Shown here piece after piece: positions 44,315 through 57,239 of a DNA stretch of 64,000 nucleotides (position 1 is the first letter of the stretch; every line of letters starts with the position of its first letter). Position numbers and translations under genes: made by a program. Source of the DNA: Desulfobacula sp. (GTDB lineage: Bacteria; Desulfobacterota; Desulfobacteria; Desulfobacterales; Desulfobacteraceae). The stretch spans positions 62,001 through 126,000 of the forward strand of contig JAMPXP010000011.1 of assembly GCA_023701135.1 (NCBI GenBank), written 5' to 3'. Below the pieces are notes generated by a model that worked only from the letters and a program-made list of their open reading frames with translations, made no database searches and was not told the DNA's origin.

Positions 44315-44611
44315 GCGGCCATAGCGGACAATGCCGCCCCCGGGGACCTTAACCGGCCCGGCCATATCTTCCCTTTAAAGGCAAAACAGGGAGGGGTCCT
44401 GGAACGGGCCGGGCATACCGAGGCCACCGTTGACCTGATGCGGCTGGCAGGCCTTAAACCCTTCGGCGTTCTCTGCGAACTGACCAACCCCGACGGAACC
44501 ATGGCCAAATTGCCCCAGGTGATCGAATTTGCCGGGCGCCGTGATATTCATGTGCTGGCCGTGGAAGACATCATTGCCTATCGGCGGGCCCATATCCAAA
44601 AAGCGGTTTAA
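44315..44611 (+). pseudogene. ribB: C-terminal fragment of ribB (DHBP synthase), start and N-terminal half deleted
   Basis: 98 codons in one open frame, from [20 protein letters not shown] to the TAA at 44609-44611. They align with roughly the last 45% of RibB (about 217 residues in E. coli), including [23 protein letters not shown] and [11 protein letters not shown]. No ATG/GTG/TTG with a ribosome-binding site exists upstream, because the riboswitch abuts it. The N-terminal metal and substrate residues of RibB are missing, so no activity is expected. The frame is still open and well conserved, so the deletion appears recent. Confidence 0.88.
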
Positions 44612-44652
44612 AAAAAACGGCCGGCCGCACCCCCCTTCAGGAATGCGGCCGG
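44610..44652 (-). terminator. Intrinsic terminator of the Hdr/Fdh operon
   Basis: A 9-bp stem, TGCGGCCGG with CCGGCCGCA on the minus strand, with a 14-nt loop, then CGTTTTTTT. It lies 14 bases after the fdhA2 stop and abuts the ribB fragment stop. Confidence 0.85.
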
Positions 44653-44665
44653 TCCATTAAAAAAA

Positions 44666-46708
44666 CTAGGATACCTTTTCGAGTTTTACGGCGCAGACCT
44701 TGAACTCGGGAATCTTGGCAATGGGGTCATAGGCCGGGTTGGTCAGCTTGTTGACATTGCTTTCCTCAAAATGGAAGGGCATGAAGACCACCCCTTTTTC
44801 CACCCGCTCGGTGATCATGATCCGGGTTTCGATCTCTCCCCTCCGGGAAGCCATCCTGACCCTGTGGCCGTCACAGAGGTCCAGGGCCTCGGCATCGGCC
44901 GGGTTCATTTCCAGGAACCCTTCCGGCACTTCAAAATCAAGGGATTTGGAATTCCGGGTCATGGTGCCGGTATGGTAATGGGCATAGACCCGTCCCGTGG
45001 TCATGCAAAAGGGATATTCCTCGTCCGTAAGTTCCGCCGGGGGTTTATAGCCGATGGCATGGAAAAGCCCCTTGCCCCGGGTGAATTTGCCGTCCTTGTG
45101 AAGGAAGGGGGTTCCCGGATGCTCCGGGGACGGGCAGGGCCATTGCAGCCCCGGCCCTTCAAGACGCTCGTAGGTCATCCCGCCGTAGGACGGGGTGAGG
45201 CTTGCAATTTCCTTGAAAATGGTTTCGGGAGAGTCATATTCCATTTTATACCCGAACCGGCTGGAGATGTCCTGGATGATCTGCCAGTCCTGGCGGGAAT
45301 CGCCAACCGGCGCCACCGCTTTTCTCACCCGGGTCACCCGCCGTTCCGTATTGGAAAAGGTTCCGTCCTTTTCCGCAAAGGAAACCCCGGGCAGCACCAG
45401 ATGGGCCAGCCTGGCCGTGGGGGTCAGGAAAATATCCTGGACAATGAGAAGTTCCAGCTTTTCCAGGGCCTTGACCACATGGTTGGCATCCGGGTCCGAT
45501 ACCACCGGGTTCTCCCCCATGATCCAGAGGGCCTTGACCTCTCCTTTTTCAATGCCGTGCAGCATTTCCGGAATGGTCAGGCCGATTTTGGAGGGAAGCT
45601 CACTCACGCCCCAGGCTTCGGCAAATTTCTTGTTGGCCGCCCCCAAGGTAACGGGCTGGTATCCGGTATAGACATTGGGAAGGCCGCCCATATCACAGGC
45701 GCCCTGGACATTGTTCTGGCCCCTGAGAGGATTCACGCCGGTGGCGTATTTCCCGATATTGCCGGTGAGCATGGCCAGATTGGCCAGGGATTTGACATTG
45801 TTCACCCCGTTGGTATGCTGGGTAATCCCCATGCAATAGACAATGGACGCCTTATCCGCTTTGGCATAGGTTTCGGCCAGGGTCTGGATATCTTCAACCG
45901 AAACCCCTGTAATCCCGGATACCTCATCCAGGCTGACGGCATGGATGAGATTTTTGAACCCCTCAAATTCTTCCGTGTTATCAGCAATAAAGGCTTTGTC
46001 TTCAAGTCCCTGGTCCAGAATCACCTTCATCATCCCGTTCAGCAGGGCCACGTCGGTGCCGGGCCGATGACGGACATAGAGATGGGCAAAGGCGGCAATC
46101 TGGTTTTTTCTCGGGTCCGCCACCAGGACCCTGGCCCCTTTTTCAATGGCCCTGAAAATCCGGGTAGCCACCAGGGGATGGGACGTGGCTGTATTGGACC
46201 CGATGATGAAAATGGTATCGGCGTCTTCCAGTTCCGACATGGCGTTCGTCATGGCTCCACTGCCAAAAGATGCGGCAAGACCTGCCACAGTGGAGGAATG
46301 TCAGAGACGGGCGCAATGGTCGATATTATTGGTGCCCACACCGGCCCTGGCAAATTTCTGCATGAGGTAATTTTCCTCATTGGTCACCTTGGCGGAGGCC
46401 AGAAAGCCCACTGCATCGGGGCCTGTGCCCTCTTTGACGGCCTTGAGCCCCGAAGCGGCAAAATCCAGGGCCTCATCCCAGGACACTTCCACCAGTTCCC
46501 CGTTCTTTCTCATCAAGGGTTTGGTCAGCCGTTTTTCAGATTGAACAAACTGATGCACATTCCATCCCTTGATGCAGAGCTTGCCCTCATTGACCGGGCT
46601 GGTCTTGCAAGGGATGGTGCCCGTAAGCCGGCCGTCCAGGGACTCAAGAAAAAAATTGCATCCGCATCCGCAATAGGTGCAGGTTGTCAGCGTATTCCGG
46701 TAATCCAT
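44666..46708 (-). CDS. fdhA: Selenocysteine formate dehydrogenase catalytic subunit, Hdr-linked (Sec at UGA 46301-46303)
   Basis: 680 residues with the UGA at codon 136 read as selenocysteine. The flanks DHCARL-U-HSSTVAGLA are identical to those of the 14888 enzyme. It begins directly with the catalytic 4Fe-4S motif (CTYCGCGCNFF) and lacks the NuoG-like front, as in FdhA subunits that hand electrons to a separate FdhB. Molybdopterin motifs QNNVQGACDMGGLPN and SFAEKDGTFSNTERR are intact. No twin-arginine signal, so cytoplasmic. Last gene of the eight-gene operon, 26 bases after the FdhB-like gene. Reaction: formate/CO2 interconversion, probably coupled through FdhB-like and MvhD to the HdrA flavins. 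Confidence 0.93.
46271..46303 (-). promoter_or_regulatory. UGA and SECIS-type hairpin in fdhA2
   Basis: On the minus strand the UGA is followed after 11 bases by the stem TGTGGCA/TGCCGCA (7 bp, one G-T pair) closing the loop GGTCT, the same loop as in fdhA1 and in E. coli fdhF. Confidence 0.85.
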
Positions 46709-46734
46709 TATCTTTCCTCTTATATTAACCCTGT

Positions 46735-47538
46735 TTATTTTTTGGGTGCAGGACCCATCATGCTCAAGGGTGATATTTCGTTCTTATTCATCCCGGATGT
46801 AAATCCGAATTCCGTGTTCATGATCTTGGATGTCTTTTTATAGAGCAGCCTCAGGGGAATATCCGCCGGACAGGCCTCTTCGCAGAGTCCGCAATCAATG
46901 CACCGGTCCGCCATGTGCATGGCCCGGGTCAGGTGGAAGACCGGGATGTCCACGGGAAGGTCCCCCTTGGAGACCAGATCTTCGCATTCCAGGCTGCATT
47001 CCTTGCAGAAGCACATGGGACAGATATCCCTGCATCCATAGCATTTGATGCATTTTGAAAACTGCTCCGTCCAGAAACTGAAGCGTTCTTTCAAATCCAG
47101 GCCTTCCGCCGCCTCCACCCGTTTCTGGGCCACCCCCTGGGATTTTTCACCGGCCGTCATCTCGTCGGGCCAGGGTTTTTTGCATTCGCATTGCAGGGCC
47201 AGGGTTTCGGGGCAGGATATCCCGATGGGGACCACCTTGTCCGCTGCCAACTGGTTCAGGCGAAAGAGGATATGAAGGCCCCTTTCATCGCAGCCCCGGA
47301 CCAGGACCCCGAAGACCTCGTCCGGATATTGCCGGGCAATGGTGGTGAGCACCTTGTTCAGCGGATATCTTGCATCTCCGGAGGTTTCCCTGTCCCCGAG
47401 ACTCAGGTGCTGAAGATCATCCCCTTTCTGGAACAGGCAGGGCGCCACATGGCCGTTGGCATTGGCCAGGGCCACGACACCCTTGACGGAGCCGCCGGAA
47501 AGGAGTTCATTTATTTTTTGTTTTACGCGATCGATCAT
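46735..47538 (-). CDS. FdhB-like iron-sulfur subunit
   Basis: 267 residues. The first 110 residues resemble the N-terminal domain of the F420-hydrogenase/formate dehydrogenase beta family (GVLVRGCDERGLHILFRLNQL). A Cys-rich middle (CIKCYGCRDICPMCFCKEC) and a second ferredoxin motif (CIDCGLCEEACPADIPL) supply two or more 4Fe-4S clusters. It lacks the full F420-binding C-terminal part. It probably carries electrons between FdhA and MvhD. It starts eight bases after the mvhD stop and ends 26 before fdhA2. Confidence 0.82.
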   Translation of the reverse strand: MIDRVKQKINELLSGGSVKGVVALANANGHVAPCLFQKGDDLQHLSLGDRETSGDARYPLNKVLTTIARQYPDEVFGVLVRGCDERGLHILFRLNQLAADKVVPIGISCPETLALQCECKKPWPDEMTAGEKSQGVAQKRVEAAEGLDLKERFSFWTEQFSKCIKCYGCRDICPMCFCKECSLECEDLVSKGDLPVDIPVFHLTRAMHMADRCIDCGLCEEACPADIPLRLLYKKTSKIMNTEFGFTSGMNKNEISPLSMMGPAPKK

Positions 47539-47546
47539 AACTATAC

Positions 47547-47990
47547 CTATCCTAAAGCAAGGGTTTTGACGGGTTCTTTTTTCAATGGGGAAGGCCCCAG
47601 CTTTTTAAGGACGTCAATAAAATGGTTGATTTCCTCAACAAACTCCGGTGCCTCGGCAGAAGATACCCATCTGGCCCTGAGCCTTTCCTTTTCCAGACCG
47701 CAGAAATCCAGCACCTGGGAAAGAACGGCCACCCGTTTTTCAGCAGAATAATTACCATACAGGTAATTGCATTCACTTAAATGTCAGCCGCCCACGAAAA
47801 TGCCGTCCACTCCCTGCTGGAATGCCCTCAGCATATGGTGGGGAGACACGCTCCCGGAGCACATGACACGGATGATCCGGATATTTGCCGGGTACTGCAT
47901 ACGACTGACCCCAGCCAGGTCAGCAGCGGCGTATGCTCACCAGGTGCACAGAAAACAGACGATATGGGGTTCAAACTGTGTGTCGTTCAT
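47547..47990 (-). CDS. mvhD: MvhD-type electron-transfer subunit with two predicted selenocysteines (codons 18 and 69)
   Basis: 147 residues when two in-frame UGAs are read through: 47937-47939 (codon 18) and 47784-47786 (codon 69). N-terminus: [22 protein letters not shown]; second site: GVDGIFVGG-U-HLSECNYLYGN. The neighbour at 51349-51768 has [13 protein letters not shown] and [21 protein letters not shown], so site 1 replaces a Cys and site 2 is shared. Start ATG 47990 after AAGGAAAG. MvhD bears a [2Fe-2S] cluster and links a hydrogenase or Fdh to HdrA. Both Sec sites lie at conserved thiol positions, likely cluster ligands (inference). 86 bases downstream of the HdrA'-like gene, the widest gap in the operon. 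Conventional gene calls would see only the piece after codon 69. Confidence 0.88.
47750..47786 (-). promoter_or_regulatory. UGA (codon 69) and SECIS-type hairpin in the double-Sec mvhD
   Basis: 15 bases after the UGA a perfect 7-bp stem AATTACC/GGTAATT closes the 5-nt loop TGTAT. The hairpin in the other mvhD is at the same distance and has a related stem (CATTACC/GGTAATG). Confidence 0.8.
47897..47939 (-). promoter_or_regulatory. UGA (codon 18) and nested hairpin in the double-Sec mvhD
   Basis: On the minus strand the UGA is directly followed by GCATACG, which pairs perfectly with CGTATGC 27 bases on. Inside, CTGACC pairs perfectly with GGTCAG around the loop TGGCTGG. The equivalent region of the Cys-containing mvhD (around 51700) lacks the outer stem as far as I can see, which ties the structure to the UGA. 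Confidence 0.75.
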
Positions 47991-48076
47991 TTATTTCTTT
48001 CCTTATATATGCTAACGGTTTTTCTCTTTGTGTTCTATATCAGGCCGGACTGTTTCCGGCATTTTCCCCGCACCGC

Positions 48077-49750
48077 TCAAGCCGCCCCGATCTGGGCCAG
48101 GAGCTGATCGGGCTTGAATCCCCGAAGCTGGGCGCTGTGGGACGGACAGGTGGCGGCACAATTTCCGCATCCCTTGCAGAGAATTTCATTGACCTGGCAG
48201 ATGCGTTTTCCCGGGTCATAGGTGATGGCTTCGTAGGGACACATGGTCAGGCAGGCTTTGCAGCCCACACAGGACTCGGGGTTGATCTCCGCCACAATGG
48301 CGCTTTTCACCAGTTTTTCCTTGAACAGGATGGCCGCCACCCGGGAGGCCACGCCGATGCCCTGGGTCCTGGCTTCCGTGGAGGTGGCCGGATACCGGCC
48401 GGACCCGCAGACAAAAACCCCGTCAGCGGCAAAATCCAGGGGACGGAGTTTGGCATGGGCTTCCAGGAAAAATCCGTTCTGGTCCGTGGGCACCCGCATC
48501 ATATTGGCCAGGGCGGCGCTGTCTTTTCTCGGCACCAGGGGGGTGGACAGGACCACCAGGTCCGTGTCCAGCTCCAGGGTTTTGCCGGTAATGGTCTGAA
48601 AAAATTTCACCTTGCCGTCCGCCACCACGGGCGCATTTTCCGGGCTGTAGACATCGAACCGAACGCCCTTGCCCCTGGCGTCCCAGAGCATCTGCTCCTT
48701 GTAGGTGCCGTACATCTGCATATCCCGGTAAAGGATTCTCACATCGGTCAGGGGATATTTTTCCTTGATGAGCATGGCGTTTTTCACGCCGATGAGGCAG
48801 CAGATCCGGGAACAGTATTCCCGTCCCGCCATCCTGGCGCCGGCGCACTGGATAAACACCACCCGTTTTGCGGAGAGGTCATTCTTTGCCAGCTTCTGCT
48901 CCAGCTCCATGAGGGAGATGACGGTCTTGCCGTTATACCCGAACAGCCCTTCCGGGATCAAGGGGACAGCTCCGGTGGCCACCACCATGCATCCGACCAT
49001 TTCTTCAAGCATTCCCTTTTCCGTATCGATCTTAACATTGAAATTACCGATATATCCGCCGGTTTCCTGGACCGTTGCCGAGGTATGGCAGGTGATATTG
49101 GATCTGGACCTGACATCCCCGATGATTTCATCAAGGGTTTCCCTGGCGGTTTTTCCCGTATCCAGGCGGTTCACCTGCTGCAGGAGACCTCCCAGGGACG
49201 GCGTCTTTTCCACCAGGATGACTTCCAGGCCCATGTCGGACAGGGCCTGGGCCGCGGACAGCCCTGCGATCCCGCCGCCGATGACCAGGATTCTCCGGAT
49301 CAGGGAGGATTCAATGGCCTCCTGGGGCTCAAGCCCGGCGCTTTTGGCGACGCCCATGCGGATAAGTTCCTTGGCTTTCTGGGTGGCGTCGGCCCTTTTG
49401 CCCATGTGGACCCAGGAACACTGGTCCCGGATATTGACCATTTCAAAGAGATAGGGATTCAGCCCCGCTTCGGCGCAGGAACTTGAAAACAGGGGCTGAT
49501 GGGTCCGGGGCGAGCAGGAGGCCACCACCACCCGGTTGAGGTTCTGTTCCTGGATGGCTTTTTTGATCTCCCCTATCCCGGATTCCGAGCAGGTATACAG
49601 ATTTTCCTTGGTATACACCACATGGGGAAGGGTTTTGGCATATTCGGCCACATCGGCGCAATCCAGATGCCCTGCAATATTGGACCCGCAGTCACAGACA
49701 AATACCCCGATGCGAGGTTCTTCATAGAGCGATACATTCTTCTTATTCAT
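48077..49750 (-). CDS. HdrA'-like (QmoB/HdrA C-half) iron-sulfur flavoprotein
   Basis: 557 residues from ATG 49750, preferred over TTG 49759 because GAAAGG lies nine bases before it. N-terminal segment GVFVCDCGSNIAGHLD, then CSPRTHQPLF, an FAD-binding fold (LVIGGGIAGLSAAQAL), and two C-terminal 4Fe-4S motifs (CVGCKACLTMCP, CKGCGNCAATCP). It corresponds to the second half of the fused protein at 51782-54817, here a separate gene. The Sec/Cys of true HdrA is absent. Relatives include QmoB and the duplicated HdrA forms of sulfate reducers. Start is 16 bases after the HdrA stop. Confidence 0.85.
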   Translation of the reverse strand: MNKKNVSLYEEPRIGVFVCDCGSNIAGHLDCADVAEYAKTLPHVVYTKENLYTCSESGIGEIKKAIQEQNLNRVVVASCSPRTHQPLFSSSCAEAGLNPYLFEMVNIRDQCSWVHMGKRADATQKAKELIRMGVAKSAGLEPQEAIESSLIRRILVIGGGIAGLSAAQALSDMGLEVILVEKTPSLGGLLQQVNRLDTGKTARETLDEIIGDVRSRSNITCHTSATVQETGGYIGNFNVKIDTEKGMLEEMVGCMVVATGAVPLIPEGLFGYNGKTVISLMELEQKLAKNDLSAKRVVFIQCAGARMAGREYCSRICCLIGVKNAMLIKEKYPLTDVRILYRDMQMYGTYKEQMLWDARGKGVRFDVYSPENAPVVADGKVKFFQTITGKTLELDTDLVVLSTPLVPRKDSAALANMMRVPTDQNGFFLEAHAKLRPLDFAADGVFVCGSGRYPATSTEARTQGIGVASRVAAILFKEKLVKSAIVAEINPESCVGCKACLTMCPYEAITYDPGKRICQVNEILCKGCGNCAATCPSHSAQLRGFKPDQLLAQIGAA

Positions 49751-49766
49751 AGGGGGCAACCTTTCT

Positions 49767-51311
49767 TCATGATGCCTTTTGATCGGTTTTTTTCATTACG
49801 GCCTGAACGGCCCTGGCCGCTGCAGAGCTGGCCTGGGCTACGGATTCGGGAATATCCATGGGGCTGTGGGCGCACCCGCAGACAAAGACTCCCGGTCGCG
49901 TGGTGTCCAGGGGATTGGCCGGGTCGGTCTTGAAAAATCCGAACCGGTCCATCTGGATATCCAGGGTTTCGGCAATTTTTCCGGCCCCCTTGACGGGTCC
50001 GCAGGCCGTGGCCAGGATCACCAGATCAAAGGGTTCTTTTTTAACCTTCTGCTCCTTGGTATCCTCATAAATTACCACGGGGCGCTCATCGGCATCCTTG
50101 GTGATTTCCGCCACCCGGGACCGTTTGTAGACAATATTGGAATTGTTTCCCCCGCGGATCTTGTATTCTTCAAAGCCCTTGCCCACGGCCCGGATATCCA
50201 TTCCAAAGATCACCGAATGGGTGTCATTGTCATGTTCATGGGCAATGATGGATTCCTTGATGGCATGCATACAGCAATAGCCGGAGCAGAAGGGGTAGAA
50301 TCTCAGATCCCGGGAGCCCACGCATTGGATAAAGGCCAGTTTTTTGGCGCTTTTAAACCCCTTGGCCTTTTCTTTCAGGGCCAGAAGGGGGGTCTCATGC
50401 TCGAGATGGGCCGAATAGCGTTCCAGCCATTTGTCCCGGTCTTTTTCCAGGGCTTCCGTCGGATTCAGGCTGCCGTTCTGATGAGCGGCATAGAACTCGG
50501 CGCTGGTCATGCCATGGTCTTTTTCAAATTTTTCAAGGCCTTTGAGGGATTTGCGGACTTTATTCTCCAGTTCGGCGATTTCAGCCTTGACCTTCCGGTC
50601 GCTGGGGCGGTAGACATGGCCCTCCGTGGGGCCCGAGGCAGACAGGAACCGCTCAAATTCCATGGCCGTGACCACATTGTCGATCTCTTTATACCGGTAT
50701 TCAGGAATCCGTGAAGGATCAAAGACATCATAGCCCGTGGCCAGAATAACTGCGCCCACGGGCAGTTCCAGGATTGTGTCCTTCTGCTCGAAATTGATGG
50801 CCCCGGCCTGGCATTTCTTCTGGCAGATCCCGCATTTTTTCCCGGTCAATACCCGGCAGTGATCCGGGTCAATGGTATGGGTGGAGGGAATCCCCTGGGC
50901 AAACCAGGAATAAATGGCCCTTCTTTCCGCATGGCCTTCGTTGTAAAGATCGATCACCGGCGTGGGGCAGACTTCCCGGCAGGCCCCGCAGCCCGTGCAT
51001 TTATCCTCTTCCACATACCTGGCTTTTTTCCGGACCGTGGCCGTAAAATTCCCGGCTTCTCCCGTCAGCTTTTCAAGTTCGCTGTAGGCCAGAAGTTTGA
51101 TATTGGGATGTCGACCGACATCCAGCATCTTGGGCGAAAGTATTCAGATGGCGCAGTCGTTGGTCGGGAAGGTTTTGTCAAGCTGGGCCATTTTCCCGCC
51201 AATGGAAGGAAGCTGTTCCACCAGGTAAACCTTGAATCCCATTTCGGCCAGATCCAGCGAGGACTGGATCCCGGCAATGCCGCCGCCAAGGACAAGTATA
51301 TCCTTTGTCAC
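49767..51311 (-). CDS. hdrA: Selenocysteine HdrA-like flavoprotein (Sec at UGA 51144-51146)
   Basis: 514 residues from GTG 51311, chosen because AGGAG lies eight bases before it; the ATG at 51335 is upstream of that site. UGA at codon 56 within [17 protein letters not shown], the position that is Cys or Sec in HdrA. FAD fold [20 protein letters not shown]; ferredoxin motif [12 protein letters not shown] at about 105; CGICQKKC at about 160. A Lys/Glu-rich insertion of roughly 80 residues (about 237-317) is not in the fused paralogue. HdrA flavin is the electron-bifurcating centre of heterodisulfide reductase complexes. It follows mvhD (51349) after 37 bases. Confidence 0.88.
51107..51146 (-). 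promoter_or_regulatory. UGA and SECIS-type hairpin in hdrA
   Basis: 21 bases after the UGA a perfect 6-bp stem GATGTC/GACATC closes the 4-nt loop GGTC. Confidence 0.7.
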
Positions 51312-51348
51312 AATCGTTTCTCCTGTTGTCTTCATCTATGATTCGCCC

Positions 51349-51768
51349 TCAGGCCACCTTTCGTATATTGGCGGGCCCCAGGGCTTTTATGGTTTCCGTA
51401 AATTCGTTTGCCGTTTTGGCAAACCGGGTTCCTTCGGCGGAGGAAATCCATTCCAGCCGGAGTCTTTTCGGATCAATGCCCAGGAGGTTTAAAAACCCGC
51501 TGGTCATCTCGAACATCTTCTGGGCCTTTACATTACCGTCCAGGTAATGGCAGTCACCGATATGTCAGCCTGAGACCAGGACACCGTCGGCCCCTTTTTC
51601 AAAGGCTTTGAGAATATAATTGGGGTTGATCCCGCCGGAACACATGACCCTGATGATTCTCATATTGGGCGGATACTGGAACCGGCTCACGCCGGCCAGG
51701 TCAGCCGCCGCATAGGAACACCAGTTGCAGGCAAAGGTCAGGATCTGCGGGTTAAAATCTTGAGACAT
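51349..51768 (-). CDS. mvhD: MvhD-type electron-transfer subunit, one selenocysteine (UGA 51565-51567)
   Basis: 139 residues from ATG 51768, seven bases after AAAGGA; the ATG at 51792 lies inside the upstream gene. Family blocks: [28 protein letters not shown], and [21 protein letters not shown] with UGA at codon 68. [2Fe-2S] protein joining an HdrA to a hydrogenase or formate dehydrogenase. It lies between the fused HdrA and the separate HdrA, 13 bases after the first. Unlike its paralogue at 47547 it keeps Cys at the N-terminal site. Confidence 0.9.
51531..51567 (-). promoter_or_regulatory. UGA and SECIS-type hairpin in mvhD (51349-51768)
   Basis: 15 bases after the UGA a perfect 7-bp stem CATTACC/GGTAATG closes the 5-nt loop TGGAC. 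Confidence 0.8.
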
Positions 51769-51781
51769 GTCAGGGTCCTTT

Positions 51782-54700
51782 CTATGATTCAAGTGCTGTT
51801 TCGATCATGGTCAGCACCTCATTGTTATAATGGAAGACACCGGCCGCACCGGTGGGGCAGGCCACGGAACAGGCGGCGCAGCCTTTGCACAGGGCCTGCT
51901 GGACCGAGGCGATCTTGACCCCGTCTTCCCGGATATGAACGGCAATGGCCCCGAAGGCGCAGGCGTCTTCACAGGCGCCGCAACCCCGGCACAGGGCCTC
52001 GTTGACCTGGGAGACCACGCCATCCACGGTCACGGTTTCCTTGGACAGGACCACGGTGGCCCGTGATGCAGCCGCCTTGGCCTGGGCAATGCTTTCTTCC
52101 ACCGGTTTGGGATAATGGGCCATACCGGCCAGGAAGATACCGTCCGTGGCAAAATCAACCGGCCTTAATTTGGCATGGGCTTCCATGAAAAACCGGTCGT
52201 CGTTCAGGGAAAGCTTGAACATCTGGGCCAGGGCTGCATTGTCTTCCGGAACAATGGCCGAGGCCAGGACAATGAGATCGGGTTCCAGGCCAAGATTCAT
52301 TCCGAGCACATGGTCCCGGACCGTCACTGCAAGGGAAGATCCCTCTTTTTGAACCAGGGGTTTATGGTCAAGGTCATACCGGACAAAGATAACCCCCTTG
52401 TCCCGGGCTTCCTTATATTTTTCTTCCCTCTGGCCATAGGTCCGGATATCCCGGTAGAGCACATAGACATCCATGTCCGGGTTCAGTTCCTTGAATTTCA
52501 GGGCCGATTTCACGGAATGGGTGCAGCAGACCTTGGAACAATAGGGACGTTCCGGCTCCCGTGACCCCACACACTGGATGAATACGGCCGCATTCATGGT
52601 TTTCAGAAACGAACTGTCTTTGGCCATCCGTTGATCCAGCTCCAGATGGGTCAGGACCCGTTCGTCTTCTCCGTATAAATATTCGGTGGGTTTTCTTTCC
52701 TTTGCACCGGTGGCAATAATCACGGCGCCGTGATCAATCGTCTGGTCCCTGCCGTTTACGGACAACGTCGTCTTGAAATTTCCGATAAACCCGGCCGTAT
52801 CCTTGACCGTTGCCCCGGTAAAGACCTGGATCAGGGGATTTTCCCGGACCTCTTTCACCAGCTTGGCCACATTTTCGGCAATGGGTTCGCCCTTCCAGGT
52901 TTGGTTCAGGTGAAGGGCATTTCCGCCCAGCACAGCCTCTTTTTCCACCAGGGTCGTAAAAAATCCCTGTTTTGCCAGGCCCAGAGCCGAGGTCATACCG
53001 GCCACACCGCCGCCGATGACCAGGCCTTTCTGGACGATTCCCACGGTGGGCTGGGGCAAGGCCCGCATGAGGGAGGCCTTGGCCACGGCAATGCGAACCA
53101 GATCCTTGGCCTTGGCTGTCGCCAGTTCTGGCTCCTTGGAATGGACCCAGGAACACTGGTTCCGGATATTGGCCATTTCAATGAGATATTTATTAAGACC
53201 CGCGTCTTTCAGGGTTTCCTGGAATAGGGGCTCGTGGGTTCTCGGGGTGCAGGCGGCCACAACGATCCGGTTCAGACCGTTTTTTTCGATCACCTGTTTC
53301 ATTTTATTCTGGGTGTCCTGGGAACAGGTGAACATATTCTCTTCCACAAAGGCCACATGGGGAAGGGTCCTGGCATAGGCCGCCACATCGGGCACATTGA
53401 CGATGCCGCCGATATTGGTGCCGCAGTTGCAGACAAAGACCCCGATCCTCGGGTCCTGGCCCATGATATCGGTCTCGGCGGGATAGGTCCTTGTTCTGGT
53501 CAGGGTTCCCCTGGCCGGGGAAAGGCTGGTTCCGGCATCGCAGGCGGCTGCGCTGGCTTCCATGACGGCCATGGGAATATCCTTGGGTTCCTGGAGGGCG
53601 CCGCAGACATAAAATCCCTTGCGGGAGGTTTCCACCGGTGAAAAACTATCCGTGACCACAAAATTATTGGCATTCAGTTCAATTCCCATGTTCCTGACAA
53701 CGGCGGCCAGGTCCGCCGGGGTTTCCATGCCCACGGACAGCACCACCATGTCAAAGACTTCGGTGATATTCCGTCCGTCTTCGCTCACATAGGTGGCGAT
53801 GAGCTTATGGTTTTCATCCTGGGTAATGGTATGGATCCTGGATCTGACAAACCGAACGCCCTGGTCCTTGGCCCGTTCATAGTATTTTTCAAAGTCCTTG
53901 CCATAGGTTCTCATGTCCATGAGAAAAATGGAGGCTTCAAACTCGCCGGAAATATGGTCTTTGGCCATCATGGCTTCTTTTACGGCATACATGCAGCAGA
54001 CGGAAGAGCAGTATGAATTGCCGCATTTATTCTGATCCCGTGATCCCACGCACTGGAGCCAGGCGATCTTTTTGGGTTCCGCCTTGTCGGGAAAGCATTC
54101 AATATGGCCATGGGTGGGGCCCCCGGCAGACAGAATCCGTTCAAATTCAATGGATGTGACCACATTGGGAAATTTGGCATACTGGAGATTGTCCAGCCTG
54201 GACGGGTCAAAGGGCTTGAACCCGGCCGCCATGATGACGGAACCCACGTTCAGGGTCAGGATTTCTTCCTTGTCCTCGTAATTGATGGCACCGGTGGGGC
54301 AAACTTTGGCGCAGGTGCCGCATTTGTCCTTCAGGAGTTTCAGGCAGACGGCAGGATCAATGGCATATTTCAAGGGGACGGCCTGGGGATAAGCCACATA
54401 AATGGCCTTTCGCTTGTCCAGACCCTCATTATATTCATCCCCGGTTTTGCCCGGGCATTTTTTGGTGCATTCCCCGCAGGCAATACATTTATCCATGTCC
54501 ACATACCGGGGGGATTTTTTAACGGTGATGGTAAAATCACCCGCCTCACCCTCGATCTTCTCGACGGTGGAAAGGGTGTGAAGCTGTATGTTCAGGTGCC
54601 GGCCGACCTCGACCAGTTTGGGTGAGATGACTCACATTGCACAGTCATTGGTGGGAAAGGTTTTGTCCAATTGGGCCATGACCCCGCCGATGGAAGTGGA

Positions 54701-54817
54701 TTTTTCCACCAGGTGAACAAAATAACCTGAATTGGCCAGGTCAAGGGCGGCCTGCATCCCGGCAATGCCGGAACCCACCACCATGACCGAGCCGTGAATC
54801 TTATTCGTATTTGCCAT
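51782..54817 (-). CDS. hdrA: Fused HdrA-HdrA' selenoflavoprotein (Sec at UGA 54632-54634)
   Basis: 1011 residues when the UGA at codon 62 is read as Sec ([17 protein letters not shown]). First half, about 1-450: FAD fold [20 protein letters not shown], ferredoxin motifs [13 protein letters not shown] (about 111) and CGTCAKVCP (about 166), then HdrA core ([13 protein letters not shown]). Second half, about 452-1011: [23 protein letters not shown], a second FAD fold ([20 protein letters not shown]), and two C-terminal ferredoxin motifs ([24 protein letters not shown]). So it has two flavin sites and at least four 4Fe-4S motifs. GGAG lies seven bases before ATG 54817. 50 bases after the HdrC/HdrB-like gene. 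Confidence 0.88.
54600..54634 (-). promoter_or_regulatory. UGA and candidate SECIS hairpin in the fused hdrA
   Basis: About 16 bases after the UGA a 6-bp stem TGGTCG/CGGCCG (two G-T pairs) closes the 4-nt loop AGGT. It is weaker than the other hairpins but at a matching distance. Confidence 0.55.
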
Positions 54818-54867
54818 TGATTAACTCCAGTTTCTTATACAATCCGTCCGTATCGCATGGGGCCATC

Positions 54868-55983
54868 TTATTCCATATGGGCCGCAAGATAGGAAACAAG
54901 GTCCAGGATTTCCACATGATGATCTGTATTTTTCCGGGCACAGGTCAGATGAATCCGGCATTTGGGACAGGCCGTGATAATGGCGGTTGCGCCGACAGCC
55001 TCGGCTTCCTTCAGCCGTTGCATCTGCATGACCTTTGAACAGGTCGAGCATTCCATCCAGGCTGTTGTGCCGCAGCAGACAGCATTCTCCCGGTTGTGTT
55101 CCATTTCCGCCAGTTGAGTTCCGGGAACAAGGGCAATCAGTTCACGTGGGGCTTCATAGATCCCGGACCGTCTTCCCAGACGGCAGGGGTCCTGAAAGGT
55201 CACGGTGGTGTTGCCCCCGTTTTTAAAGGCGATTCCTGCCTTGGGTATCTCCCTGGCCAGGAATTCCGTGATGTGAATGATCTCAAAGGGCAAAGGACCC
55301 AGCTTTTGGGTATAGGCCTCCCGGAACATGGAATAGCCTTCGGGACAACCGAAAACAACGGTCTTTGCGCCTGCGGCAACGATGGTCTGGATATTCTTTC
55401 GGGCCAGGGTTAAAAAGGTGTCCTCATCCCCGCACCAGAAGGCATCGTGTCCGCAGCAGCATTCGTCATTGCTGACCACGGGCTGGATCCCGATTCGATT
55501 GAGGAGCCTGAGGTTGTTCTCCGCAGACTCGATCATGTTCAGGTCAAGATATTGAAAGGCCGCGTCATAATAGGCAATACAGCCGGTGAAATAAAAAATA
55601 TCCCCTTTGTCGGCAATCCTCCCCGCTTTTTTGGCCCATTCTATCCGGTTCTGTTTGACGCCCTTGGCCTGGATGCTGGTGATGGTATGAAACATGCCGT
55701 GGTGGCTGAGTTTGGGGAGGTTGTCCGCCTGTCTGGCTTTGTAACGGTAAGACCGGATAAATTCAGGAAAGTCTATTTCCACCGGGCACCGGTCCGAGCA
55801 CCGGGAACAGGAAAGACAGGCCCAGATATCCTTGCTTTGAAGGATATCGCCCTCGGGCTCCGTCAAGGTGCGCTTGATCATCCGGCGCGGGGAAAAATCT
55901 TCCAGCGTCATGGCCACGGGGCAACTTCCGGTACAGACCCCGCATTCCATGCAATAATCGATTTGTTGTTGTGAAAGCTGCAT
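54868..55983 (-). CDS. HdrC-HdrB-like fusion (HdrD-type, two CCG domains)
   Basis: 371 residues. N-terminal HdrC-like part with two 4Fe-4S motifs (CMECGVCTGSCP; CLSCSRCSDRCP). The C-terminal HdrB-like part has two Cys-rich CCG domains (DECCCGHDAFWCG with FGCPEG; DPCRLGR, AVCCGTTAWMEC, ACPKC). CCG domains hold the non-cubane clusters that cleave heterodisulfides in methanogens. In bacteria the acceptor is unknown; it may be a disulfide, a DsrC-like protein or another carrier. First gene of the operon; a good sigma-70 promoter lies about 140 bases upstream. Confidence 0.9.
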   Translation of the reverse strand: MQLSQQQIDYCMECGVCTGSCPVAMTLEDFSPRRMIKRTLTEPEGDILQSKDIWACLSCSRCSDRCPVEIDFPEFIRSYRYKARQADNLPKLSHHGMFHTITSIQAKGVKQNRIEWAKKAGRIADKGDIFYFTGCIAYYDAAFQYLDLNMIESAENNLRLLNRIGIQPVVSNDECCCGHDAFWCGDEDTFLTLARKNIQTIVAAGAKTVVFGCPEGYSMFREAYTQKLGPLPFEIIHITEFLAREIPKAGIAFKNGGNTTVTFQDPCRLGRRSGIYEAPRELIALVPGTQLAEMEHNRENAVCCGTTAWMECSTCSKVMQMQRLKEAEAVGATAIITACPKCRIHLTCARKNTDHHVEILDLVSYLAAHME

Positions 55984-56121
55984 AGATAAAATCCAAATAT
56001 CAATAAAAAATAATCAATCAACCCTATTTAATGATTCTTTGATGGGAATTTATCTTCCCGAAAAAGAATCTTTTGTGCCGCAAAATCAAAAACAAAGCTT
56101 ACAACACCAGAAAAAGCGTCG

Positions 56122-56159: not shown

Positions 56160-57239
56160 TTATAATCTTTTCAAAACCTTATCATACTGTTTTACTATGA
56201 TTTCCCATGAAAACCGGGCCATTTCACCGGATAATCTTTCCTGGAGCGGCTTGTATTCACGAACATTCAGAAGGATGTGTTTGAGTTTTTCCACCAGGTC
56301 CGTTTCCGTCCTGTAGAAAATACGGGGATGGAGATCTTCCGGCATGATCTCGGGATAGGAAAGCCGCTGGGGAAGAAGAGGAACACAGCCATGGCGGACC
56401 GCCTCCACAACGGAAATGCCGAAATTTTCCTGAAGGGCCGTACTGACCACCACAGCCCCCTTTTTAAGCCAGGACAGATAATCCTCCCTGGATTCCACAT
56501 AGCCGGAGACCCGTATTTCATCCTTTAAAACCACTCTCGCCCTGTTAAAAATATCGGGAAAGGCCTCGAAATTTTCGCCCAGGAGGGCCAGGGAAAAGGG
56601 AATGTTCATTTCCTTCAATCTGAAAAGGGCATTGAAAAAGGATTCCGGATTTTTATCATGCTCCCATCTATGGTTCCATATGATCAAGGGCACGGCTCCG
56701 TCCCTTTCTTCCAGGGTCACGGAACCCGGCTCAAACCGGCAGCCGGGATAAATGACAGAGGCCTTTTTCCGAATCTCCTCCATCATGAAACCGGGCCTGG
56801 CGTCGGGCATGAGGCGGATCAATGCCCTGGCCGCCCCCATGAATTCATCAAGGTGGAATTTTGAATTAAACACCACCCGGTTGGCGGCAAAGGCAGACAC
56901 CATATTGGTAAACCCCAGGTGAAAATCGCGTTTCTCATCAAAGGCCAGGGGATAGGACAACTGGTTTTCATGGAAATACAGGAGGACAGGCGGAAGATTT
57001 TTGCCTGCCAGGGCCTTGAAATCCGTCAGATCCATCATGTCCGTGGTGAGGATGGCGTCATAGAACGAAAAATCCCGGATTTTATTCACAAAATGCAGGG
57101 CCGCCCCACGCATGCGCCATTTCCAGAACCGGGCCGGCAGGGTTTCAAGGGTGATGTCATGGCTGGAACAGGCTTTAAATCCCAGGGCAAAGTCCTGATG
57201 GGAACCGCCGAAAAAAGGCTCAAGAAAGAGGATTTTCAA
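56160..57239 (-). CDS. tRNA-queuosine mannosyltransferase-like glycosyltransferase (DUF3524/GTDC1 family)
   Basis: 359 residues, GT4-type fold. The N-terminal DUF3524 domain is plain: LFLEPFFGGSHQDFALGF, TLPARFWKWRMRGAA, YFHENQLSYP, and FTNMVSAFAANRVVFNSK. A glycosyltransferase group 1 domain follows (WNHRWEHDKNPESFFNAL; FGISVVEAVRHGCVPLLP). Members of this family, such as vertebrate GTDC1/QTMAN, mannosylate queuosine in tRNA-Asp. That this bacterial gene does so is inference. It is monocistronic; its stop is at the promoter of the Hdr operon. Confidence 0.85.
   Translation of the reverse strand: MKILFLEPFFGGSHQDFALGFKACSSHDITLETLPARFWKWRMRGAALHFVNKIRDFSFYDAILTTDMMDLTDFKALAGKNLPPVLLYFHENQLSYPLAFDEKRDFHLGFTNMVSAFAANRVVFNSKFHLDEFMGAARALIRLMPDARPGFMMEEIRKKASVIYPGCRFEPGSVTLEERDGAVPLIIWNHRWEHDKNPESFFNALFRLKEMNIPFSLALLGENFEAFPDIFNRARVVLKDEIRVSGYVESREDYLSWLKKGAVVVSTALQENFGISVVEAVRHGCVPLLPQRLSYPEIMPEDLHPRIFYRTETDLVEKLKHILLNVREYKPLQERLSGEMARFSWEIIVKQYDKVLKRL

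Follow-up and report, generated by a model that had tools for sequence, protein, structure and literature searches.

We describe a gene of Desulfobacula sp., a marine sulfate-reducing bacterium, that encodes a small electron-carrying protein of the FlpD/MvhD family, here called MvhD2, and that contains in-frame UGA codons at positions 18 and 69. It lies on the minus strand of the stretch of DNA that was analysed (64,000 nt, hereafter the window, to which all coordinates refer). The best explanation of its sequence is that both UGAs are decoded as selenocysteine (Sec), each through its own in-frame bacterial SECIS (bSECIS) hairpin. We consider it likely that this MvhD, with its two Sec residues and a bSECIS for each, is the connector from FdhBA to HdrA, Sec69 being a cluster ligand and Sec18 a free selenol. 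The portion of the literature searched, which did not extend to supplements and subscription papers, yielded no two-Sec bacterial MvhD, no paired bSECIS and no ligand/non-ligand split. As far as these searches reach, then, the conserved bacterial two-Sec form, its paired bSECIS and the division into ligand and non-ligand Sec are new; an automatic annotation of a two-Sec bacterial MvhD may well exist in the protein databases, which lay outside the search.

The MvhD2 frame and its family

The mvhD2 frame (47547–47990, minus strand) runs from ATG 47990, directly 5' of which lies AAGGAAAG, to TAG 47547–47549, and specifies a protein of 147 aa when UGA codons 18 (47937–47939) and 69 (47784–47786) are read. 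This confirms the two-UGA MvhD frame of a preliminary description made from the sequence alone, in which frame, start, both UGAs and the terminal TAG had been placed correctly. The family resemblance that it had noticed in the flanks of both sites is borne out by the PF02662 (FlpD/MvhD) profile, which matches MvhD2 over its full length (174.2 bits, positions 1–123 of 123): both UGA sites align with Cys positions of the profile, and the Cys/Sec residues that the family requires are present as C15, C44, U69 and C74. Sec18 forms a CxxU motif after Cys15, and probably is not a cluster ligand; Sec69 stands at one of four positions that never deviate from Cys or Sec, and is a probable [2Fe–2S] ligand. 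The paralogue MvhD1 (51349–51768, minus strand; ATG 51768 to TGA 51349–51351) conforms to its earlier description: its first site is Cys and its second a UGA codon (Sec68, 51565–51567).

Among solved MvhD/ElpC chains, MvhD2 matches 5odc_D, 8rvu_F and 7bkb_F in sequence (E 2e-46 to 4e-38), and five aligned chains, of six solved MvhD-type chains found, have Cys at both sites. The AlphaFold model of MvhD2 (pLDDT 82) has 5odh_D, 5odc_D, 8rvu_F and 7bkb_F as its best PDB fold matches and recovers the fold of solved MvhD (5odh_D, E 4e-17; 5odc_D, E 6e-17; TM-scores 0.81–0.87). Residue 18 of the model lies near the start of helix 16–24, three residues past Cys15, which is at the end of the first strand. 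MvhD homologues are known to bind a [2Fe–2S] cluster (PMC12350162).

Two separate bSECIS elements

The bSECIS-like hairpin of codon 18 (47904–47924, minus strand) has 8 bp, including G–U end pairs, and a GGCUG loop 20 nt past the UGA; that of codon 69 (47750–47768, minus strand) has 7 bp and a UGUAU loop 22 nt past the UGA. In the codon-18 hairpin, pairing extends to all cells (100%) of 49 distinct sequences and one compensatory change is seen, and 94.8% of cells of the codon-69 hairpin are paired in 41 of 63 distinct sequences, with a loop that is mostly UGUAU or UGUAC and two pairs changed on both sides; compensatory changes are few in both. Shifting the codon-69 structure by +3 columns gave a slightly higher covariation score (0.074 versus 0.058). 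The perfect 7-bp stem proposed earlier for codon 69 is as described, including its loop. The nested 7+6 bp hairpin proposed for codon 18 survives in its inner part (the 8-bp helix above), and its outer 7-bp helix was rejected, two of its pairs being broken in about half of the sequences (78.4% paired).

Genes were sorted by their codons at sites 18 and 69 into Sec/Sec (UU), Sec/Cys (UC), Cys/Sec (CU) and Cys/Cys (CC), and the normalised entropy of silent sites was calculated for codons 22–29 (hairpin 1), codons 75–80 (hairpin 2) and elsewhere. In this order of regions the values were 0.10, 0.20 and 0.83 in Sec/Sec genes (n=64), 0.41, 0.71 and 0.76 in Sec/Cys genes (n=11), 0.80, 0.17 and 0.82 in Cys/Sec genes (n=43), and 0.79, 0.94 and 0.84 in Cys/Cys genes (n=16), such that strong silent constraint under a hairpin is found only where its own codon is UGA. 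Hairpin codons of the Sec/Sec genes differ from the other codons with a Mann–Whitney p of 1.4e-7, a descriptive value given that the sequences are related. Because synonymous codons freeze under each hairpin only in the presence of its own UGA, we regard this four-way control as decisive, at the level of sequence comparison, for two separate bacterial SECIS elements, and the earlier claim that each UGA has a hairpin of its own is upheld. The four classes constitute a clean natural experiment, in which bSECIS constraint tracks UGA separately at each site of a single gene. The UGA pair occurs in 65 distinct orthologous genes, and in these the silent sites are constrained under the one hairpin as well as under the other.

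The published bSECIS model, the constraints of which were taken from PMC13188914, calls for a loop 16–37 nt past the UGA, a G within the first two loop bases and a minimum free energy (MFE) of at most -7.5. The MvhD2 hairpins, with -15.3 and -9.2 kcal/mol and loops at 20 and 22 nt, conform to it, and so do all six Sec codons of the operon in the window, compared with none of its three TGA stops. A bSECIS prediction after each UGA, which had been proposed as a check, is therefore positive at both sites, but it is weak evidence alone, since 143 of 626 UGA triplets sampled from the window, on either strand and in any frame, also pass. Counted without the patterns --CUC, CSCCC and CDCCC and without rows lacking the full stretch, passes at sites 18 and 69, respectively, were 65/65 and 50/65 for Sec/Sec genes, 10/11 and 0/11 for Sec/Cys genes, 33/43 and 40/43 for Cys/Sec genes, and 3/16 and 0/16 for Cys/Cys genes; codon-shuffled Sec/Sec controls passed in 448/650 and 57/650 cases. 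With background and shuffles passing this often, above all at site 18, we rejected the pass rate as stand-alone proof. At site 18 the model is not diagnostic, and because that site often passes without a UGA, it is the silent-site result and not the bSECIS model that carries it.

Rfam, applied to the operon (44600–56100), listed nothing at E 10 or below for the hairpins of MvhD. The alignments of this analysis comprise 26 of 28 Sec/Sec places in A1, the window together with 35 of the 80 named loci in A2, the full set of 49 distinct sequences in A3, and 41 of 63 distinct sequences in A4. Hairpin alignments served to build two covariance models, R1 and R2; R2 also matches the Cys site of the MvhD1 paralogue (35.1 bits), which can be explained by protein homology.

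Probable decoding of both UGAs as selenocysteine

The genome itself has a tRNA-Sec (76.8 bits) and SelB (352.9 bits), and at both MvhD2 sites the UGA occupies a Cys-equivalent position and is kept in relatives. Across nine orthologues, dN was below dS (at most about 0.4 of dS) in 19 of 27 segments, on both sides of each UGA, with dS not computable in 8 of the 27.

Two in-frame stops within one short frame might also be expected of a pseudogene, of a sequencing error, or of a code in which UGA specifies Trp. We reject these readings, to which we give next to no chance: the identical UGA pair is found in named strains and in MAGs of many projects, and a pseudogene or error is refuted because orthologues share both UGAs; the genome has the machinery for Sec; and, with regard to Trp, TGA ends three neighbouring genes, and Cys, not Trp, is aligned opposite both UGAs. 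A further possibility is that one UGA only encodes Sec, the other being a regulatory stop that makes the full protein conditional (for example, a selenium switch). Such a stop would be in keeping with the presumed inefficiency of Sec insertion in bacteria, and with the failure of 15 of the 65 Sec/Sec genes to pass the bSECIS model at site 69. However, the protein is conserved, with dN below dS downstream of both UGAs, silent constraint is site-specific and present under both hairpins, and a stop at codon 69 would lose Cys74, a residue present in 80 of 80 FlpD domains (see below). We judge a regulatory stop to be very improbable, and maintain that both UGAs are best explained as Sec codons.

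Probable cluster ligation by Sec69 and the role of position 18

In 80 FlpD domains, positions 15, 44 and 74 are Cys without exception, position 69 is Cys (69 domains) or Sec (11), and position 18 is Cys (28), Sec (22), Asp (19), Ser (5), Gly (5) or Met (1). These domains were drawn from 184 FlpD matches in 39 genomes sampled across the phylum and represent the lower-scoring part of those listed, with none from the genome under study, a sampling that inflates the share of odd residues at position 18. A [2Fe–2S] cluster usually has four ligands. Since four positions are invariant as Cys/Sec and four is the usual number, Sec69 is most likely a ligand, together with Cys15, Cys44 and Cys74, and Sec18 is most likely a free selenol adjoining the cluster, and not a ligand.

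We therefore argue against the suggestion of the preliminary description that both selenols are ligands of the same [2Fe–2S] cluster. Cys is found at both positions in the five aligned solved chains, and five Cys/Sec residues are kept in most close relatives, so that the spare thiol might be another than that at position 18; but 30 of the 80 domains have Asp, Ser, Gly or Met at position 18 while positions 15, 44, 69 and 74 are Cys/Sec in all 80, and there are more cases of Asp or Ser at this position in L030, L143 and L031. Asp or Ser, which account for 24 of the 30 cases without Cys/Sec, could be ligands themselves, and for this reason the firmest ground for a non-ligand role is given by the five Gly, the one Met and the four invariant positions. 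Ligation of one cluster by both selenols appears unlikely to us, and we favour Sec69 as the ligand with Sec18 beside it; Sec69 might also tune the potential of the cluster, an effect that the preliminary description had proposed for the selenols as an alternative to ligation.

Asp18 is seen in FlpD domains of the phylum (e.g. L157, L158 and L162) that lie within open frames of 734–775 residues, suggesting a different role of position 18 in longer or fused proteins.

Distribution and origin of the Sec/Sec form

UGA at both codons was found in at least 28 of 145 genomes (own genome and relatives), the Sec/Sec places being in at least 13 of 26 genomes of the genus, at least 12 of 60 others of the family and at least 3 of 59 others of the order. 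Among the best 80 of 426 named loci, the matched gene is Sec/Sec in 60, Sec/Cys in 7 and Cys/Cys in 13. Four named strains, as distinct from MAGs, carry Sec/Sec genes (Desulfospira joergensenii DSM 10085, Desulfopila sp. IMCC35008, Desulfosediminicola flagellatus IMCC35005 and NaphS2), the same protein is present in a Desulfobacula MAG (L065), and Sec/Sec records bear the names of Desulfobacteraceae, Desulfobulbaceae, Desulfohalobiaceae, Syntrophobacteraceae and Syntrophaceae. When 39 genomes were sampled evenly across the phylum, the matches listed included no two-TGA FlpD besides the gene itself. The Sec/Sec form seems, from these counts, to be concentrated near the order of the window, with further members elsewhere. 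The orthologue alignment kept matches of at least 60 bits (171 rows), in which 90 Sec/Sec rows, owing to overlapping records, correspond to 65 distinct DNAs; a further two-TGA row (G020:C161:4383) is a Cys/Sec MvhD1 paralogue (L066), and we take its second TGA to be its stop.

A quick tree, for which sites 18 and 69 were masked in 216 FlpD domains, requires a minimum of 11 changes at site 18 and 13 at site 69, and cannot tell gain from loss. One clade (SH-aLRT 91) takes in 63 of 64 Sec/Sec tips together with 3 Sec/Cys tips, and L133 lies apart. On this tree, Sec is gained or lost separately at each of the two sites; a count of Sec/Cys exchanges in FrhD had been published by 2006 (PMC1794560). 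The Sec/Sec MvhD of L133 (2686–3093) has Sec/Cys proteins as its neighbours and stands outside the main clade, and its second Sec is possibly of independent origin.

The genome of the window has 12 FlpD places, and its eight top-scoring FlpD comprise two Cys/Cys, two Cys/Sec, three Sec/Cys and one Sec/Sec (MvhD2). All four Sec/Cys combinations are thus present in one genome among these paralogues (L001–L008); a further one, L030, lies in an open frame of 782 residues and has Asp at position 18.

Relation to known systems

Two Sec residues in this family have a precedent in archaea. In Methanococcus maripaludis, vhuD contains two TGA codons (PMC9622424), as the preliminary description had suggested for methanococci, and a 2026 review lists the family with CxxU and two Sec, reports multiple Sec in some archaeal FrhD/VhuD, ascribes to VhuD an apparently central part in bringing both the formate dehydrogenase and the hydrogenase of M. 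maripaludis into contact with HdrA, and places archaeal SECIS elements mostly in the 3'-UTR (PMC13188914). MvhD2 shares with the archaeal two-Sec VhuD the FlpD/MvhD family, the CxxU motif, a place of action beside HdrA and two UGA-encoded Sec residues (compared by number, from the literature). It differs in the location of its hairpins, which are conserved inside the frame and not in a 3'-UTR, there being eight bases between its TAG and the next ATG.

Deltaproteobacterial MvhD selenoproteins, also part of the earlier account, have been in print since 2006: Sec is reported in FrhD of Syntrophobacter fumaroxidans (PMC1794560) and in mvhD1/2/3/5 of Desulfobacterium autotrophicum (PMC2702500). They share with MvhD2 the family and the HdrA neighbourhood, and D. 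autotrophicum loci V and VI have fdhB–fdhA beside mvhD, as does the window (PMC2702500). The relevant passages of these two accounts make no mention of two Sec per protein, and some of the MvhD/FrhD genes concerned may be two-Sec. The HdrBCA–MvhD–FdhBA cluster of the deep-sea Chloroflexi DscP3, which was compared with Desulfobacula toluolica Tol2, has the same gene content and a Sec-containing FdhA, and differs in that the corresponding passage does not mention Sec in its MvhD (PMC5736913). In the methanogen Fdh–Hdr and Elp–Hdr complexes (7BKB, 8RVU), which are among the best fold matches of the MvhD2 model, MvhD/ElpC likewise links an FdhAB-type module to HdrA (PMC12350162), whereas Cys is found at both positions and the partners are HdrB and HdrC.

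Operon and proposed role in electron transfer

The operon, read from its 5' end on the minus strand, encodes an HdrD/HdrBC-like protein with CCG domains in which no Sec was seen (54868–55983), a long HdrA-like protein of 1011 aa with Sec in NDCAMU (51782–54817; UGA 54632–54634), MvhD1 (Cys/Sec), a split HdrA consisting of an N-terminal half with Sec in NDCAIU (49767–51335; UGA 51144–51146) and a C-terminal half (48077–49750), MvhD2 (Sec/Sec), an FdhB-like iron–sulfur protein of 267 aa (46735–47538), which has Fer4-type matches only and is named FdhB for its place between MvhD and FdhA, and FdhA, the formate dehydrogenase alpha subunit (44666–46708; TIGR01591, 860.7 bits), with Sec136 (UGA 46301–46303). 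Six UGA-Sec codons fall within 44666–54817 (HdrA, split HdrA, MvhD1, MvhD2 twice and FdhA), and fdhA, fdhB, mvhD and hdrA stand together as in the gene sets of Fdh–Hdr complexes.

The formate dehydrogenase-linked setting that had been claimed holds across relatives. Where enough sequence is available among the best 80 named loci, Sec/Sec MvhD is followed 3' by FdhB in 54 of 54 cases and by FdhA in 47 of 49; 5' of it are HdrA (53/53) and a second MvhD (33/44). A motif search of 61 Sec/Sec loci including the window, counting loci with a motif match only, gave Sec 54 and Cys 0 for the FdhA motif and Sec 68 and Cys 0 for the HdrA motif NDCAxU. The Sec/Cys relatives have FdhB (7/7) and FdhA (4/5) as well, compared with 0/12 and 1/12 in Cys/Cys relatives. 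Because the setting is common to the Sec/Cys relatives, it belongs to the clade and does not explain the second Sec. The preliminary description had placed the novelty of MvhD2 mainly in its bacterial, formate dehydrogenase-linked setting; its reservation regarding archaea was well founded.

We suggest that MvhD2 would act as a [2Fe–2S] connector carrying electrons from the Sec-containing FdhBA to HdrA. Sec69, at one of the four always-Cys/Sec positions, would ligate the cluster with Cys15, Cys44 and Cys74, and Sec18, in place of a fifth and dispensable thiol, would help electron transfer or protect the cluster. By homology, the path may lead from the FdhAB-type module through the HdrA clusters and the MvhD/ElpC [2Fe–2S] cluster to the bifurcating FAD; we infer from homologous complexes which way the electrons would flow, as well as any bifurcation. 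The mechanism of the step from the cluster to the bifurcating FAD, which involves two electrons and about 25 Å, was called unknown in 2025 (PMC12350162).

It is conceivable, if something of a long shot, that MvhD2 has a natural Sec69-ligated [2Fe–2S] cluster beside a free selenol, Sec18, serving as a second redox or gating group. If so, the Sec18 gate would enable a one-electron cluster to supply the bifurcating flavin of HdrA, some distance away, with two electrons, and Cys18 of other family members would do the gating less well. With position 18, the cluster site of MvhD gains a fifth thiol or selenol, dispensable in the family, and yet Sec is spent there. Translating two Sec codons out of 147, and six in one operon, looks costly, yet the pair is kept in loci recorded under several families. 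Selenium at a probable ligand and a probable non-ligand position would provide separate 77Se and X-ray handles on the electron step.

Three minor observations concern the same region. Rfam SECIS_3 matches at the FdhA UGA (46248–46306, minus strand) with a sub-threshold score of 44.3 bits (gathering threshold 63). The N-terminal half of the split HdrA (49767–51335, minus strand) seems to carry an insert of about 80 residues when compared with an HdrA profile (365 profile positions spanned by 444 residues), which is charged and, by eye, possibly coiled-coil. Just upstream of the operon, 56160–57239 (minus strand) encodes a tRNA-queuosine alpha-mannosyltransferase N-terminal domain (PF12038, 207 bits).
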